Source of the DNA: Apteryx mantelli | Lineage: Eukaryota > Chordata > Aves > Apterygiformes > Apterygidae | Length of the DNA: 64,000 nucleotides | Assembly: GCF_036417845.1 (NCBI RefSeq) | Contig: NC_089978.1 | Span: 35,890,682 to 35,954,681 of the forward strand | Direction of reading: 5' to 3' | Shown here: positions 27,730 to 63,800 of the stretch, one piece after another | Layout of the letters: each line of letters starts with the position of its first letter | Numbering within the stretch: the stretch's first letter is position 1 | The notes under the pieces: generated by a model | The model's database searches: none | The model's input: the letters and a program-made list of their open reading frames with translations, nothing else | Told to the model about the DNA's origin: nothing | Made by a program: the position numbers and the translations under genes

Positions 27730-28890
27730 CACAGAATCACAGAATGGTTGAGGTTGGAAGGGACCTCTGGAGATCATCTAGTCCAACCCCGCTGCTCAGG
27801 CAGGGTCACCTAAGAGCACATTGTCCAGGACCATGTCCAGGCAGTTTTGAATATCTCCAGAGAAGGTGACTCAACAACCTCTCTGGGCAACCTGTTCCAG
27901 TGCTCTGTCATCCTCACAGTGAAGAAGTTTTTCCTCATGTTCAGATGGAACTGCCTGTGTTTCAGTTTGTGCCCGTTGCCCCGTGTCCTGTCACTGGGCA
28001 CCACTGAAAAGAGTCTGGCCCCGTCCTCTTGACATCCTCCCTTCAGATACTTATACACATTGATGAGATCCCCTCTCAGTCTTCTCCAGGCTAAACAGGC
28101 CCAGCTCTCTCAGCCTTTCCTGATAGGAGAGATGCTCCAGTCCCCTAATCATCTTCGTAGCCCTATGCTGGACTTGCTCCAGCAGTGCCACATCCCCAGA
28201 ACTGGACACAGTACTTCAGATGTGGCCTCAGCAGGACTGAGTAGAGGGGGAAAATCACCTCCCTCCACCTGCTGGCAACACTCTTCCTGATGCACCCCAG
28301 GATACCATTGGCCTTCTTGGCCACAAGGGCACATTGCTGACTCATGGTCAACTTGGTGTCCACCAGCACTCCCAGGTCCTTCTCCACAGAGCTGCTTTCC
28401 AGCAGGTCAACCCCCAACCTGTACTGGTGCATGGGGTTATTCCTCCCCAGGTGCAGGACCCTGCACTTGCCTTTGTTGAACTTCAGGAGGTTCCTCTCCG
28501 CCCAGCTCTCCAGCCTGTCCAGGTCTCTCTGAATGGCAGCACAGCCCTCTGGTGTATCAGCCACTCCTCCCAGTTTTGGATCATCAGCAAACTTGCTGAG
28601 GGTGCACTCTGTCCCTTCATCCAGGTCACTGATGAAGAAGTTGAACAAGACTGGACCCAGGACTGACCCCTGGGGGACACCGCTAGCTACAGGCCTCCAA
28701 CTAGACTCTGCACCACTGATCACAACCCTCTGAGCTCTGCCTTTCAGCCAGTTCTCAATCCACCTCACTGTCCACTCATCTAGCCTACACTTCCTGAGCT
28801 TGTCTATGAGGATGTTATGGGAGAGAGTGTCAAAAGCCTTCCTGAAGCTAAGGTAAACATCCACTGCTCTCCCCTCCGCTGCCCTCTCCT
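27730..28890 (-). mobile_element. CR1 LINE, 5'-truncated (copy 2, inverted relative to copy 1)
   Basis: Read on the - strand, this is a 5'-truncated CR1 ending in two ATTCTGTG units (reverse complement at 27730-27745). It covers the reverse transcriptase from the R-A-V-D-V block (about 28870) through F-A-D-D to the 3' end. It shares copy 1's private lesions: the same deletion after F-W, the same lost bases near the end of the frame, and Pro after F-A-D-D. That places both in one subfamily or one conversion history. The 5' edge is near 28883-28895, where similarity to the CR1 order fades. A long - strand frame (28163-29002) fuses CR1 to unrelated upstream sequence and is not a gene. The element ends about 450 bp from the VWA8 CpG island. 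Confidence 0.95.
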
Positions 28891-29344
28891 TCATCTGATA
28901 AGATACTTCTTTTGATACTGCACCAATAAATTCTTGTCTTTCTTGTTTCCAATGTTCAGACTTTAAACTATTACTTAGTGAAATAACACTGTAAGATGAC
29001 ACAGTTGGCCACTTAAAAGAGACAACACGGATTGTGTTCTCTGTTAGAATTGCCCTGGAAAGGGCCTTTGCTCCTCTGGACCGTAACCCGGCATTTCGGA
29101 GGGCCGGTGTCTAGTTCGTTGCTCGCACATGGTGAATGGTGAGATGAAGCCCTTTCTAGGCCAGTCCTCTTTTCCTAATGCAATACTGGGAGGTGAATTC
29201 AGCACCCTCGGGTGCCTCTGCAACTTAAAAAACAAACAAACAAAAAAAACCTTTCCTGGTGTCACATCCCATCACAAAGACAGCTCCAATTTACTTTCCA
29301 GAAGGAAAGCAAAAAGGAAGAAAAAAAAAAAGTTTCCTGCCTCC
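28891..29344. other. VWA8 5' flank outside the CpG island
   Basis: This is the transition from AT-rich DNA to the CpG island. It contains an AAAC-type run near 29229-29250 and an A-run near 29318-29330. No exon is recognised on either strand. It is a candidate place for a divergent promoter or transcript, but nothing in the sequence proves one. Confidence 0.45.
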
Positions 29345-29560
29345 CAGGAGCCCTGCTCCTCAACCGTGTTCCTGGGCGCTGCTGAGGGAGCTCTCCCGGT
29401 CTCCCCCGCCCCCGTATTTCTTATCCCCCCTGGCTCGCCGGGGCCCTTCTCCACACCTTTCCCCCTCAGCCTCCACCAGGTTCCCAGCCAGCCGCGGCCG
29501 CCCCGCTGGCGCTGCGCGCCGCCATCCCGCCGCAGCGGCGGTTGGCGGGGGGGGGGGGCA

Positions 29561-29570
29561 GCCGCCATCT
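29561..29570 (+). promoter_or_regulatory. Possible YY1 site
   Basis: GCCGCCATCT matches the core of the YY1 consensus and lies about 145 bp upstream of the ATG, where YY1 sites often sit near CpG-island start sites. This is a motif match only. Confidence 0.3.
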
Positions 29571-29713
29571 CCTCCCCGCCCCCCGCGGCGGCGCATCCCG
29601 GCCCCAGCCCGGGCCCGGGCCCGGGCCCCGGCCGGCCCGGCGCTAGTTTCCGGCGGGAGTTTGTGCGGCGGCGTTTCCCTTCCCCCGTCCCGGCCCGCCC
29701 CGCCCCGGCGCCC

Positions 29714-29858
29714 ATGGAGTCGCGGGTGCTGTGCCTCGGCCGCGGCGCCGGCGGCGCGGCGGCGCGCAGGGTCCGCCTGCTGCTGCGGCAGGTGCTGCGC
29801 GGCGGCGCCCCCGCGGCGCGGCCGCTCCGCCTGGAGGTGCGGGCGCTGCGCAGCGCAG
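29714..29858 (+). CDS. VWA8: VWA8 exon 1 (mitochondrial presequence)
   Basis: The coding part of exon 1 is 145 nt, or 48 codons plus one base. The product begins M-E-S-R-V-L-C-L-G and contains R-R-V-R-L-L-L-R-Q-V-L, which parallels the start of mammalian VWA8 as I recall it (R-R-M-R-L-L-L-R-Q-V-V). It is rich in Arg, Ala and Leu with very few acidic residues, as expected for a mitochondrial targeting peptide. The ATG has G at +4 but C at -3, a middling Kozak context; it is chosen because it matches the family start and lies in the CpG island. The donor is CAG|GTAACG. The split Gly codon is completed by exon 2. Confidence 0.9.
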
Positions 29859-31029
29859 GTAACGGCGCCCGCGCCGCCCGGCGCGGCTCCCCCCCGGCTC
29901 CGGGCCCGCCCTGGGGGCAGGTGGCGCCGGTGCGGGCCGCCGCTCCGTCCCTTCGGCGTTGCCGTGGTCGCGCCTTCCTCTGCGGATGAGTATTTGGGGA
30001 GGGGGACGGCGGGAGGCCAGCGCCGGGCCGGCCGAGGCGCTCGGCGCGGCTTTGCCCGGCTCCTCGCCAGGCGCCTGGCCGCCGGGAGCAGGAGGCGGCC
30101 CCGCCGCCCCGAACCGGCTCTCGCCGTCGTGCGACGCGGCTCGTTTGTGCGCGGCGCGGCCTTGTCCTTCTGCGGAGCCCGGGCCCTGCCGGCAGCAGGG
30201 GCTGCCGAGCCCCACGGCAGCTCGTACTTGCCTGCAGCGTAGTCTTGAAAGCGGCTTCCCTTAGGCAGCGCCAAAGGAGCGGTTGGGCTGACCTTGAGCC
30301 AGCGTAGGCTGGGCAGCACGACCTGAGCTGTCCCAGGGTGTCCCCTCGTGACCTCTGGGACAGGTGACGGCCTTGTGCAGGGCCCACGCGGTGTTCGGCA
30401 GTGGTGACTTACGCCTAGGGTGGGTGGCACGCTCCTGGATGAACGCCCAAAACGGCAAAACTGCTAAATATAGAGTGAATAAGGAGCAGCTGCGCGTTAG
30501 GGCAATAGAACGATACCAAGAGGTTCTGGTGGTGAGGTGCCTGCTAAAGTTCTTAATGCTTTTCATACTTTAATGCTTTTCACTTCCGTTTTTATTGTTT
30601 GATCAGAGGATTAGCTGACATCGGTTCATTTCTTTAGTGTATGTTTGAGTCTATCAAGAAGGAAATCTTTCTGAAGAATAGTTAACCGTAACATTCCATC
30701 GAGCCTTTTAAAATAGAAAATACTTTTTATTTGTGAGAAGTAAAAACACTTGTCTTTTTTGATACCTTAAAAAGAAGAGGAATAAAATGGAACAAGTTAA
30801 GGGTGTGTAAAAGGAGTGCCTGAAAAAGGTAGATCAGGTTGTTTCATCCCTTGTTGGGATAAACAGCCTTAAGAGTAAGGAGAAATTCAGTGAAACAAAA
30901 CAGTAACAAATGCCATATTTCTACAAATAATAATTTGACAGTAAAATTCAGTGCTATAGAATGTAACTTAACATTTAGCAATATTCACAATTATACTGGA
31001 TATGTATATGAATAATATAAGTATTCCCA

Positions 31030-33619: not shown

Positions 33620-35168
33620 ACTGGGGATGTGGTGGGTGTCTGTTACCGCATGACTAAGAGGAGGTAGTGGATATTGCTTTCTACAGACAGCTAGCAGAAA
33701 CCTCCCACTTATGGACCTTCATTCTCATGGGAGATTTCAGCCATCCAGACATCTTCTAGGAGGCCAGTCTGGTACTGTGGAAGCAATCTTGGAAGTTTCT
33801 AGACTGTGTTGGTAATAGTTTTGTGATGTGAATGCCAGAGAGGCTGGCCAGAGATAATGCTTTACTTGACCTGCTGCTCACAAGCAGGGGAAAACTGTGG
33901 CCAGTATAGTCAGAGATGGCAGCCTGAATAGTGGTGACCATAAAATGGTTGAGTTCAGGATCTGGAGGAAAGCCGGGAACGTGAGCAGCAGAACTATGAC
34001 TCTGGGCTTGAGGAGTGCAGAGGTTTTTCAGGAAATTGCTAGGTGGAATTCCTTGGATAACAGCCATGAAGGAGAAGGGATCCAGGAGAACTAGAAGATT
34101 TTTAAAGAAAACTTAATGATAGCTGAGCAGTGAACCATCCCACAGTGCAGGAAGATTGGGAATTTCAGCAGGAGGCCTGCTTGGCCAAGCAAGGAACCTC
34201 TCCATGGCCTAAAACACAAAAAGGAGACATATAAAAGTGGAAACAAGGACAAACAATAGAAGAGCTGTATAAAAGTACTACTTGGTATGTACGGACAAAA
34301 TCCCTACAGACTGACAAATGGCAGATCTTTAGTCCAGAGGGACCTATATAAGCTTGAGAACTGGGCCAAGAGAAACCTCATAGAGTTCAAGAAGTGTGAA
34401 GTTCTGCCATTGGACCTAAGTAATGCTGTCCATCCATACAGGCTGGGGAGGGACTAGCTGAGAAGCAGCTCTGCTGAAAAGGATGTGGGGGTTGTAGGGG
34501 ATATCAGTTGAATATGAGCCAGCACTGCGCTCTCATAGCACATCAGGCAAGCCAGAGACTCGGCTGCATTAGGAGGAGCATGGCCAACTATCAAGGGAAG
34601 GTTCATCTCTAGTAGGCATTGATGAGGGTTCATCTCTAGTAGGCATTGATGAGGCTCCACCTCGAATGCTGTGTCCAGTTTTGGGTCCCCCAGTTCCAGG
34701 GAGATATCAAGAAGCTGGTGGGGGTCTGGTTGAGGGCTGCCAAAATTGTTGGGGACCTAAAGCCTGTGACAGTGAGGAGAGTCTGAGGAAGGTGGGCTTG
34801 TTAGGCTTGCAAGGAGAAGGCTAAGGAGGAAAAGTGTAATTGCAGCTTACAATTACAGTTACAAAGATGATGCAACCAAACTCTTCTTAATAGTGGCAGG
34901 TAATGTAAAAAGGGGAAGTGGTCACAAATTGTGGCTTGGGAGGTTCAGACTGGACAACAGGAAAAATATTTTTACTAGGAGAGTGGTGCAGCACTGAAGC
35001 AGGTTAGCCAGAAAGGTTGTGCAGTCTCCATCCTCGCAAGTTTTCAGACTCGGCTGAAGCCAGAGCTGAGCTGATCTAGTGCTGCTGATAAGCTGTCTTT
35101 GAGCAGCAGTTGGAGTAGATGACCTCCAGAGGTCCCTTTTAATCAATATTTCTAAGATTTTTTGATAC
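33620..35168 (+). mobile_element. Decayed, internally deleted CR1 LINE
   Basis: On the + strand this carries an endonuclease remnant (G-D-F-S-H-P-D-I type, about 33731-33757) and the segment before the reverse transcriptase (about 33880-34250). It then jumps directly to the region after the reverse-transcriptase active site (from about 34320, L-x-x-L-E-N-W-A-K-R-N-L), so the palm domain is deleted. It ends near 35168, after a degenerate AGTAGATGACCTCCAGAGG tail at about 35113-35131. Many stops and indels, plus a 27-bp tandem duplication (34600-34653), mark it as older than the other large CR1 copies. It lies in sense orientation in VWA8 intron 1. Confidence 0.85.
34600..34653. repeat. 27-bp tandem duplication inside old CR1
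   Basis: The segment beginning GGTTCATCTCTAGTAGGC is present twice, 27 bp apart, with no visible difference. It arose after insertion of the surrounding CR1 and is confined to this copy. Confidence 0.9.
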
Positions 35169-58747: not shown

Positions 58748-59614
58748 CACAAAAACTCTTTATATACCCCAGGAAAGATATGGGCAAGAATAATTCAGCT
58801 TAAAAAAAATCAGCAGTGGGTGCCAATTGTGTAGTTCTGTGACGTACTAACTTACTGCCTTGGAGATCACAGTGGATTTTTGATGAACTGTTAGGTTAGC
58901 CACAGCAAAGGCACTGTCAAATAGTATAACTTGGTTTACTGGCTGTTCTGCACTGCAATATTTTATAATACAGGTAGATAAATAACAAAGTCCATACAAG
59001 AGGCACGCCAGGCAGTGCTCCAGGAGTTACCATTAATTTTCTTGTTGCATCAGACATTTCACAGAAAGAAAGAAATACTGTGTAGAGACCAACTGTATTT
59101 GGTTGAAATTAATCTTTGTTATCATGTACATAGTATATCTTATATCTAAGAAGAAAATGCATGATAAAGGACCCCTGTGTAGTAGCCTCAACTCTTAAAA
59201 GTGGTTTTGTTTTAATCATATGCCATACTTCTTCTGCATTCCTAAAAGTGCTAGCATTTAACTAGGTTTGTCAGATGAGGAGTTCAGAAGCCTTTATCTT
59301 GATTTGATGTGGAAGGCATTTATGTAAGAAGTATTAGGATTCTGTATTTATAATTCCTTATAGTTTAAAACTTAAGGTGTGTTTTGTGTGTTACATATAT
59401 ACAGGCACACCTCGGAGATACTGTGGGTTTGGTTCCAGACCACCACAATAGAGCAAATATTGCAATAAGGCGAGTCACATGAATTTTTTGGTTTCCCAGT
59501 GCATATAAAAGTTATGTTTACACTATACTGTAGTCTAGTAAGTGTGCAATAGCAGTATGTGTAAAAAAACAATGTACATACCTTAGTTAAAAAATACTTT
59601 ATTGCTAAAAAATG

Positions 59615-60745
59615 CTAACCATCATCTGAGCCTTCAGCAAGTTGTAGTCTTTTTGCTGATGGAGGGTCTTGCCTCGATGTTGATGGCTGCTGACCGATCA
59701 GGGTGGTGGTTGCTGAAGGTTGGGGTAGCTGTGGCAATTTCTTAAAATAAGACAGCAATGAAGTTTGCTGCATCGAATGACTCTTCCTTTCACAAAGGAT
59801 TTCTCTGTAGCATGCAATGCTGTTTGATAGCATTTTACCCACAAGAGAACTTCTTTCAAAATTGGAGTCAGTCTTCTCAAACCCTGCCGCTGCTTTATCA
59901 ACTAAGTTTATGTCATATTCTAAATCCTTTGTTGTTGTTTCAACAACGTTCACAGCGTTTTCACCAGGAGAAGATTCCATCTCAAGAAACCACTTTCTTT
60001 GCTCATCCGTAAGAAGCAACTCCTCATCCATTAAAGTTTTAATGTGAAATTGCAGCAATTCAGTCATATCTTCAGGCTCCACTTCTAATTCTAGTTCTAT
60101 TGCTGTCAGTTCTAGTTCTCTTGTCAGCCTGTCCTTTGAAATTTTGAAGCCAGGCATTGACTTCTCCTCTCTAGCTATGCAAGTCCTACATGGCAACTTC
60201 TTCCAATATAAGGCTGTTTCATCTACATAGAAAATCTGTTGTTCAGTGTAGCCACCTTCATCGGTTATCTTAGCTAGATCTTCTGGATAACTTGCTGCAG
60301 CCTCTACATCAGCACTTGTTGCTTTACCTGGCACTTTTATGTTATGGAGATGGCTTCTTTCCTTAAACCTCATGAACCAACCTCTGCTAGCTTCAAGCTT
60401 TTCTTCTGCAGCTCCCTCACCTCTCTCAGCCTTCACAGAATTGAAGAGAGTTTGGGCCTTGCTCTGGATGAGGCTTTGGCTTAAGGGACTGTTGTGACTG
60501 GTTTGATCTTCTATTCAGGCCACTACAACTTTCTCCATATCAGCAAGAAGGCTGTTTGGCTTTCTTATCATTCGTGTGTTCATTGGAGTAGCACTTTGAA
60601 TTCCCTTCAAGACCTTTCCCTTTGCGTTCACAACTTGGCGAACTGCTTGGCTCAAGAGGCCGAGCTTTCGGCCTGTCTTGGCTTTCATTGTGCCTTCCTC
60701 ACTAAGCTTCATCATTTCATCAGGCTTGCTCAAAGCAGGGTTGGC
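59615..60745 (-). pseudogene. Tigger1/TIGD1-like transposase remnant
   Basis: Read on the - strand, the first part (about 60745-60515) is a helix-turn-helix segment: K-L-S-E-E-G-T-M-K-A-K-T-G-R-K-L-G-L-L, then S-A-T-P-M-N-T-R-M-I-R-K. It ends in an in-frame TGA where TIGD1 has Trp. After it the frame continues through the CENP-B-type DNA-binding part (S-R-G-W-F-M-R-F-K-E-R-S-H-L-H-N-I) and the first catalytic Asp region (Y-V-D-E-T-A-L-Y-W-K-K). At K-D-R-L-T it jumps to the acidic C-terminal tail (E-L-E-L-E-V-E-P-E-D). The second and third catalytic Asp regions are therefore deleted. The tail through S-L-L-S-Y-F-K-K-L-P and the final A-E-G-S-D-D-G is intact. It cannot be an active transposase. 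Confidence 0.92.
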
Positions 60746-60780
60746 ACAAACCTTCAATTTGTAAAAAATGCAATATCTGC

Positions 60781-60825
60781 GAAGCGCAATGAAACGAAGC
60801 GCAATGAAACGAAGCGCAATAAAAT
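60781..60825. repeat. Three 15-bp units next to the Tigger right end
   Basis: GAAGCGCAATGAAAC occurs twice, followed by GAAGCGCAATAAAAT. It sits just inside the terminal inverted repeat, where the mammalian consensus as I recall it has two units. Confidence 0.9.
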
Positions 60826-63800
60826 GAGGTATGCCTGTAGTACACTTTTTGCTCAGCCAGTGCTTCCTATACTGGGGGAGGGGCAATATTTTGTAATATG
60901 TGGGGTGATAACATTCCTAGACAATAGGGACTTGATGGATGGTGCTCTGAATCCAAGTGTTTTAACAGTGATAGTAACTTTATCATGTTCACATATCTGT
61001 CCAGTACTTAATTCTCTTTTTACTCTATTTCTCATCAGGAAGAAGTATTTAAACAACTCATCTTCCTTATTCTTGTCCAGAAGACAAGTGTTGCATAGAA
61101 AGAAGATAAAAACCCCTGGGTTTCTTTGCTGGTAGATAGTTGTGCTCTTACACCTGTGCAAAACCTGAAATTGTTTCCTTCTGGCTTGCTCACTACCCAA
61201 GATGCGACATGTTCCAGCATACCTAATGTACAAATGCTGCAGTTCAAGTAGACCTGGCATGAAGCTACTCAGATGATTAGACCCTGCCTAGGTGGGGAGG
61301 TAGCCTCTTGTAAATGCAATTTGCAGGCACTACTTTAAACACAACTGACTGCAGTATTGGTGGAAGGAGTGATACAAATAAAACAGATAATTTGACCTGT
61401 GGTAGTTCAAAAAAAAAAAAAAAAAAGGAAGTGTAGAGGAAGCTAAAATTAAGTGACTTAAGCAACTGCTCCAGTTATTTTTGCATTAACATATTTATGA
61501 TTTCATCATATAGTGATTCATTTCCTAGGCTAAACTTAACCCTAGCCTAATTTTGAGAGTTGGACCTCCAGTAAATTCAAGTTGTCCGCTTCTAGTTGCT
61601 CTTCTTTCTTGCTGTCCTATGGCATTGCATCATGAATTAGCTGCTCACCAGTTCAGGCCTTTCTTCCCCACTGGAACATTACTGCTTCAGACAGATGAAG
61701 TCTCTTTTTGGATGCTAACTAGCCTGGCTGATAGTGCTCTGGTATACTGTGAATTCCCTGTTATCTTAAAAAAAAAAAAATTGAGTCAATAGCAGTATTA
61801 TTAAAAACAAATAGACTGTGTCTGGTAATTTTCCTAGCCTCACAAGGAAAATCTAATTATAAAACCCACCCAGAATACACTTGATTGGCTCAGGTGGGGA
61901 GGTAGGCTGAATGGTGATGTAGCCCCCCATTAGTGGGGAAGAAAAAGGTTGAAAGGTTGAATTATTTATTTCTCTAGTTACTTTTTTATTTGACTAACCA
62001 CATTAGTTACTATTTCCTTGCTTTTAATAAAACCTGAACATCGTGTTTGCAACATATAACTCAGTATACGCTGGCCTATATTTAGTGTATTGTAGCTGTA
62101 AAGTGCAAAACTATAGTTTGTATCGTAAACTACAGAGTGAAAAGTTTGTAATAAAAGAATAGAATACGTGTTTCTGATGAATAGTAGGTCTGTTTTTAAT
62201 CTTGTCTGTGAGTGACATTATACATTCAGAACTTTTTTATTAAATACATGTTTTTTTAAACAACTAACATACAAGATTTTGCAAGTATTTAAGGAACAAG
62301 ACAACATTAAGTCTTTATAAAAAGTTTGGCATTGTTGCTTTGAAATTGGTTGAATGTAGCTTTGAAATAGCCCTTTATCTTGCTACTTATTTTTGACAGT
62401 GTTTTTATGATGCAGGATGTATGCTATTACTTCAAGCTATTGAATAGTCATCCATCGCACTGTTGCTCCACAGCTTTTATGTTGGAAACATATGAGGAAA
62501 ACAAAAACCAAAGAAATAAGTGGTTTAAAAACTGAACAAATATGTTAAAGATGTTTTTAGGTAAAGTCATACCATTAGAAATGCTGTTTACCTTCCAGAT
62601 ATTTTTAAAATCTAGTAAAGTAGATCCCCCAATAGGTCACAGCTTTGTATGCTTCACTGCTTTCAACATCTGTCTGTACAGCTATATTTAGAACTGCTTA
62701 GAGACGGATTACTCTGCCTCTGATGTATTATTTTCTTGTTACTTCCATACAAGTATACAAAAATCTTGATGATTTTATGATTTGATTGTATCTTCTTAGA
62801 AAAATACCTCAGTCATTTACAGAAAATTAGAAGTCTTGGTCAATATCCTCTTCCTTCCCCAGTAAAATGAGGAAGAAGAGCTCATAGAAGTATGCCAGTA
62901 TACATCTCTGTCATTTATTTTCCTAATATCTTTTACATTTTGGCAAGTTTTAATGATTTATCTTTAAAAAATTTCATAAATTTTATTTGACCCATGGGAA
63001 GCAATTTAAAACATCTCAATTTCCTGTGCATTTTGTGACCTTTGTTAGCTTGGTAGGTTACAGGAACTCAAATTAATGCCCACCTCCCATCCCTAGAAGA
63101 CAGGCTGCACTGGCAATTTAATAGCTATATATTCTGTTAGCCTGCTGCAGCCAGTAGACAACATGTTAGCTCAGAACCAGCCAAAGCTGTGTGTTCTTTA
63201 CCAGATGGTAGAGATCTCTCTCTATCATAAGAGACCTCTGGGCATACCGTTGCTGGGATGTTTATGGGATACAGGAGAGAAGGGAAGGACTTTGGATGAG
63301 CTTGTGTAGGATATTGTGTTGGTGGAGGGAACAAGATAATTGCATTGGAAGGGACTTTTGAAACGTAGGACGCCAAAGCAGGGAAACCTTATCTCATTAG
63401 TTCTGTTGTTCACTATTACTTGCTTGTTCTGTTACTTTCCTACACTGTAATTTTGGGTGCTGTGCTTGAGATGTCATTATGGGGATCCAGTTTTCAGAGC
63501 AAGGGTGGTCATCTTCTACAAAGCATATCTCCAGGTAGCTTCCAAAAAGAAGACACTTCAACTAGTAATTACTGTTGTGCAATTTCCAGCAGCATTTGTT
63601 TTTGTAAAATTCTCAAACATAATCCTGATGGAAATCCTTTATGGAAACCCAGAATGATGTATGAGTCTGAAAGATAAAAGCTCTATACAGTTCCCGAGAT
63701 TATTCCTCTCTGATTTCAGGAAGAATAGTTTTTTTGTCTAATTATATGCATTTTCCTGAAAAAACAGAATTGATTACAATTGATTTCAATTCTGGTATTT

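Follow-up and report, generated by a model that had tools for sequence, protein, structure and literature searches.

A mammalian-type Tigger1 DNA transposon lies at positions 59402-60837 of the 64,000-nucleotide stretch of bird DNA analysed here (the window, in what follows, means that whole stretch). The insertion, pointed out in a preliminary description made from the letters of the DNA, is real. It is a dead, internally deleted, non-autonomous copy, one of hundreds in the genome, so that the single element of that description stands as an insertion and gives way to a family as its setting. We consider it highly probable that the observations are best explained by a Tigger1 acquired horizontally, a deleted derivative of which spread in trans before the family died. 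Moreover, neighbouring copies have probably been homogenised by gene conversion over long distances, as judged from sequence comparison.

Results

All copy searches were carried out in the window's own assembly, a single bird genome of 1,504,198,195 bases in 408 contigs. The genome-wide copy count that the preliminary description had called for gave 914 first-look candidates with the window element as query; the best 40 were scored and comprised the window copy and 39 others, and since these 39 were 88-91% identical to it over ~1317 bases, a chance match is excluded. When the DDE_1 profile (PF03184) was used, the best 150 of 498 candidates were scored and all 150 exceeded the cut-off, which gives at least 150 DDE_1 loci, and 20 of 20 loci compared at the DNA level proved to belong to this element, close to full length. 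The 60 copies analysed further consist of the window copy, 39 derivatives selected by their likeness to it, and 20 full copies selected by DDE_1 score. A loose test for both ends was passed by 60/60 copies, in the case of L053 barely and doubtfully (10/28 mismatches at the right end), and TA was present on both sides of 49/60, the window copy included, as in pogo/Tigger elements.

Several lines of evidence identify the family as Tigger1, in agreement with the preliminary description. First, the column majority of the full-length copies is 2,417 bp long, which falls within the about 2.41-2.42 kb of a full-length Tigger1, and it carries a 636-codon open frame; L041, being identical to L040, was left out of majority and divergence figures, leaving 19 of the 20 full copies. 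Secondly, this majority agrees with a provisional mammalian Tigger1 consensus at 2392/2417 positions (~99%), with 196-200 matches in every full block of 200, and the window copy agrees with it at 1322/1420; we regard the match to this provisional consensus as a strong lead and not as a database test. Thirdly, the genomic open frame P0001 (from L068) matched CENP-B_N (expectation value, E, 5.2e-22), HTH_Tnp_Tc5 (8.5e-14) and DDE_1 (2.2e-56), the domain set of pogo/Tigger transposases, and weakly matched the solved CENP-B structure (E 4.7e-4). The primers for a human single-nucleotide polymorphism (SNP) contain pieces that we take to lie in a Tigger1 end. Three such pieces, from the part of PMC5399404 available to us, matched the bird majority at 11/12, 19/20 and 18/20 positions, the best of 300 shuffles each being 10, 15 and 16. 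In four mammals, the accessible text of PMC3517439 gives TIGGER1 lengths of 2,408-2,419 bp and copies 12.1-28.0% from consensus. The catalytic triad of TIGD1 is reported as DD32D (PMC7325037).

The window copy is 1,436 bp long, with exact bounds at 59402 and 60837, and its ends match at 11/12 positions (CAGGCACACCTC against the complement of GAGGTATGCCTG). Its minus strand holds a pogo/Tigger transposase remnant with a single internal stop, and TA stands immediately outside both ends; both the remnant and the TA duplication had been described beforehand. Its features are as follows.

59400..59401, no strand: TA target-site duplication, left copy, adjoining the element end
59402..59413, plus strand: left terminal inverted repeat CAGGCACACCTC, 11/12 matched to the right end
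59402..60104, minus strand: segment common to full-length copies (element positions 1-703), being the non-coding end and the C-terminal part of the transposase, antisense; 91% identical to L029 over 702 bp
60083..60123, no strand: deletion junction that marks the subfamily (full-length positions of about 704-1336 missing), accompanied by a tandem duplication of ~21 bp; 3 further bases are absent here from the window copy
60123..60718, minus strand: N-terminal part of the transposase (CENP-B-like/HTH region), antisense, with one stop, from sequence comparison with the family
60718..60722, no strand: second deletion junction (~386 bp lost), private to the window copy; 39/39 other derivatives keep the stretch
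60780..60824, plus strand: 15-bp unit present three times near the right end; relative to the majorities, the window copy carries an insertion of 15-17 bp at this place
60826..60837, minus strand: right terminal inverted repeat GAGGTATGCCTG, pairing with the left end
60838..60839, no strand: TA target-site duplication, right copy, adjoining the element end

The deletion of ~633 bp takes out nearly all of DDE_1, and the central DDE_1 stretch is gone from the window copy and from 39/39 derivative copies. It defines a derivative of ~1.8 kb, whose junction occurs 84 + 85 = 169 times genome-wide at up to 2 mismatches, the reversed-pattern control giving 0; the window copy is not expected among these 169 because of its 3-base loss. 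Within the set of 60, the junction with its 21-bp tandem duplication was found at up to 3 mismatches in 38/39 derivatives (6 mismatches in the remaining one) and at that threshold in 0/20 full copies, where mismatches numbered 6-10. This mismatch count was used because automatic gap counting was unclean, the gaps being split (a single 704-1336 gap in 3/39, other single gaps in 9, no gap of at least 300 in 27).

A transposase frame free of stops and indels was found in 0/19 full copies. The family appears to be dead now, to have possessed a functional transposase in the past, and to have had a derivative mobilised in trans. The genome-wide copies (914 candidates, at least 150 DDE_1 loci, 169 junctions) rule out a single stray insertion, and a domesticated TIGD1 gene is ruled out by hundreds of copies, by the ends on those inspected and by the lack of an intact frame.

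Dating by divergence from the family's own consensus, also proposed in the preliminary description, gave mean Kimura two-parameter (K2P) distances to the majority of 4.9% for the 19 full copies and 5.9% for the 39 derivatives, or 3.9% and 4.4% with CpG sites removed.

Divergence between copies depended on their position. Among the 60 copies, the nine pairs less than 2 Mb apart differed by 4.2% on average, the values going from 0% at 12 kb through 1.4-1.6% (117-128 kb) and 4.5-6.3% (383-623 kb) to 6.0-7.6% (0.9-1.5 Mb). For the 198 same-contig pairs beyond 2 Mb and for the 1,563 between-contig pairs alike the mean was 10.1%, with minima of 7.4% and 6.1%, respectively; no pair of these copies was closer than 6% across contigs or beyond 2 Mb. 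The same was seen in searches with single copies. Query L066 matched two further copies at 99%, at distances of ~33 and 128 kb, the 37 other rows being at 84-89%. With L013 as query, linked copies within 1.53 Mb made up six rows at 92-95%, against 85-90% for the 35 others. The region C3:14.45-15.98 Mb is among the places where linked copies are more alike than unlinked ones.

Substitution-free runs were analysed in 16 pairs, namely all nine linked (<2 Mb) pairs of the 60 copies, four pairs (L074-L081) chosen for equal hidden Markov model scores, and three unlinked pairs hand-picked for comparison. The inverted pair L040/L041, with 12 kb between the two copies, shows no difference from end to end over 2,419 bases and has different flanks. 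In L053/L055, L066/L067, L074/L075, L076/L077, L078/L079 and L080/L081 an interior run of 903-2,306 bases is free of substitutions, at least one end carries 3-12 substitutions per 100 bases, and the flanks are unlike (the retrieved sequence of L080 stops short of the right end). This pattern of clean interiors and divergent ends is thus seen in 6/7 of the pairs that contain mismatches and are separated by at most 419 kb. The longest run was 61-96 bases in the three unlinked pairs, 474 in L061/L064, and just 107-148 in L013/L028 and pairs at greater distance.

As a separate observation, about eighteen same-contig groups of DDE_1 matches among the best 150 of 498 have identical or near-identical scores; five pairs were compared by sequence.

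The preliminary description had further placed the element in an avian-looking VWA8 intron. The avian setting is borne out: beta-keratin matches lie in clusters (at least 150 scored), and an alpha-globin exon scored best, among single-chain entries, with the alpha-A chains 3a59/3fs4, which presumably are those of ostrich. Two beta-globin exons of the globin cluster gave tied scores or preferred other chains, which we take to be bird chains as well. As to the intron, two AAA_5 exons do lie on the plus strand outside the window, the first ~3.3 kb beyond its end; that they belong to VWA8 is our assumption, and a structure-library search with them returned midasins only and no VWA8 match.

Other features of the assembly were recorded in passing. 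In the beta-keratin array at C15:26341346-26653072 the matches have identical scores, many are spaced ~5.57 kb apart, and most share one strand in the first part of the array and the opposite strand in the second, forming a large inverted array of keratin genes. Cytochrome b gave a single match (each of 11 candidates was scored), at C5:76869236-76869688; it has 5 stops under table 11 and is probably a nuclear copy, and the assembly seems to lack the mitochondrial genome. In the window, positions 28001-30000 have 60% G+C against about 36-44% on the flanks, perhaps a promoter island of VWA8 and a neighbour, and positions 34600-34654 hold two perfect tandem copies of a 27-bp unit.

Discussion

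The family is in our view best read as horizontally transferred, either directly or by way of a third party, as the preliminary description had argued from a similarity too high for vertical descent. This reading draws on the mean copy-to-majority divergence of 5-6% together with near identity to the provisional Tigger1 consensus. The avian neutral rate is about 1-2e-9 per site per year, at which the spread of the family would be about 20-45 million years old. An intact Tigger1, a cut-and-paste DNA transposon of the pogo type, would have entered the ancestry of the bird, its source being a placental mammal or else a third party from which mammals received it too. The transposase that it encoded would have bound the ends, excised the element and inserted it at TA sites, thus spreading full-length copies of 2.4 kb, and a single internally deleted derivative of 1.8 kb would have been mobilised in trans to ~170 sites or more. 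The window copy would be one such derivative that later lost another ~386 bp, while the family as a whole died and then drifted.

Some caution is nevertheless called for, since several points weigh against this account. The figure of ~99% depends on a provisional consensus, which the published lengths and the three primer pieces support but which was set down after the translation of one copy was known. Single full copies are 3.8-6.0% from it, the window copy is 8.7% from the derivative majority, and 11/60 copies are without TA on both sides. Selection of the full copies by score, and of the derivatives by their resemblance to the window copy, may have biased the divergences. Finally, the distribution was seen in a single bird assembly.

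That the element passed directly from a placental mammal, such as a bat, to the bird ancestor, and not from a shared third-party source, is a serious possibility to which we give somewhat less than an even chance. Neutral change is slower in large flightless birds, and at such a rate bat Tigger1, at ~14% divergence in the available part of PMC4971623, could be of like age, and kiwi copies are there said to have been found with Tigger1_MNa of the bat Miniopterus as query. On the other hand, Tigger is widespread in arthropods and present in reptiles, according to the portion of PMC9219625 at hand. Searches for relatives in a prokaryote collection (23 pattern matches, 0 confirmed) and a viral collection (2 pattern matches, 0 confirmed) covered hardly any animal genomes.

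The likeness of linked copies has the marks of interlocus gene conversion, namely near-identical tracts, divergent ends and decay with distance, as read from the assembly, and linked copies have probably been homogenised in this way. It could instead be proposed that recent local hopping produced the near-identical pairs, which share a contig, occur in either orientation, differ in their flanks and mostly have a TA of their own, and of which L040/L041 is identical throughout. We hold this to be improbable: recent hopping predicts even identity, so that identical interiors with divergent ends, found in six of the seven pairs, point to conversion, and only linked pairs are close. Current transposition as the source of identical pairs is ruled out by the same confinement of closeness to linked pairs. 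An assembly artefact is a less likely cause, as it would hardly favour copies that are linked. Two observations detract from gene conversion: mismatches were also clustered in 2/3 unlinked pairs (p 0.005 and 0.01), and unlinked pairs, too, vary somewhat more at their ends. Since unlinked pairs also cluster, it is the long substitution-free runs, and not the clustering test alone, that carry the argument; for L013/L028 and the more distant pairs, with longest runs of 107-148 bases, the argument is from likeness alone. Taken together, we find it rather probable that one Tigger1 lineage invaded placentals and kiwi-like bird ancestors hardly changed, and that the bird copies have been kept alike by conversion over hundreds of kb, up to about 1.5 Mb.

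Birds and mammals separated about 320 million years ago, and neutral DNA so long apart would be saturated. Because the majority is close to the provisional mammalian Tigger1 consensus despite this interval, non-coding ends included, and the copies lie only 5-6% from their majority, we reject as very improbable the proposal that birds kept an old Tigger family by vertical descent from the amniote ancestor. It could draw on the wide occurrence of TIGD1-like sequences in tetrapods (PMC7325037) and on Tigger reports from crocodiles, turtles and one bird in the consulted part of PMC9219625, but marsupials have just one or two degenerate copies in the accessible part of PMC3517439.

A mammalian contaminant or a chimeric assembly, the latter already argued against in the preliminary description, is hardly credible. 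It is untenable because the 60 copies sit at different sites on many large, chromosome-sized contigs that also bear bird-type genes; 49 of them have TA on both sides, and the copies share a deletion derivative of 1.8 kb that, to our knowledge, is not found in mammals. For kiwi this doubt had been left open in 2016, in the part of PMC4971623 seen by us.

The host is probably a kiwi or a close relative of kiwis. If it is a kiwi, that doubt is settled, the mammal-type Tigger1 being no contaminant but spread across the genome as a family that has a deletion derivative of its own. The family offers a DNA transposon whose passage can be dated, whether it went between mammals and birds or came to both from a common source. 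Linked copies could moreover serve as a natural ruler for long-range gene conversion, comprising hundreds of relatives of 1.8-2.4 kb at all distances, and dating a transposon from close neighbours would give it a false youth. The transfer is well supported and was already glimpsed in kiwi; long-range conversion may be the part most surprising to a specialist.

Comparison with known systems

The preliminary description left novelty in birds open. Tigger1 matches in brown kiwi had in fact been noted in 2016, with more than 20 insertions at ≥97% identity over ≥92% of a Tigger1_MNa query from Miniopterus natalensis, in the excerpt of PMC4971623 available; apart from this remark, no report of a Tigger1 family in birds was found among the matches listed in the open-licence literature. 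The kiwi matches are probably the same element as the bird family reported here, the difference being that contamination was left open there, whereas here hundreds of copies lie in chromosome-sized contigs. Other bird records are of Tigger at large: the surveyed part of PMC9219625 has Tigger in one bird species (3,808 bp, 584 amino acids) and no bird in its transfer pairs, and the repeat tables, in the portion seen, give 528 TcMar-Tigger elements (39,074 bases) for spotted owl and 0 for barn owl.

The bird family resembles mammalian Tigger1/TIGD1 in length, ends, TA target, the order CENP-B_N, HTH_Tnp_Tc5 and DDE_1, and ~99% agreement with the provisional consensus. It differs in its host, in a copy divergence of about 5-6% compared with 12-28% in four mammals, and in having a 1.8 kb derivative with its own deletion of ~633 bp. 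Among horizontal transfers involving birds, AviRTE is a retrotransposon shared with nematodes, as the accessible text of PMC4844689 describes it. The galluhop mariner is closer, being a DNA transposon with deletion derivatives (miniature inverted-repeat transposable elements, MITEs) that moved horizontally in birds, although it belongs to another group, mariner, and passed between Galliformes and Bucerotiformes (PMC5556988, in part). Lastly, the homogenisation of bird Tigger1 copies falls with distance as does that of neighbouring human Alu elements, but Alu conversion is reported within about 10 kb in the available parts of PMC8230782 and PMC6598467, whereas in the bird family it would reach over hundreds of kb and perhaps 1.5 Mb.

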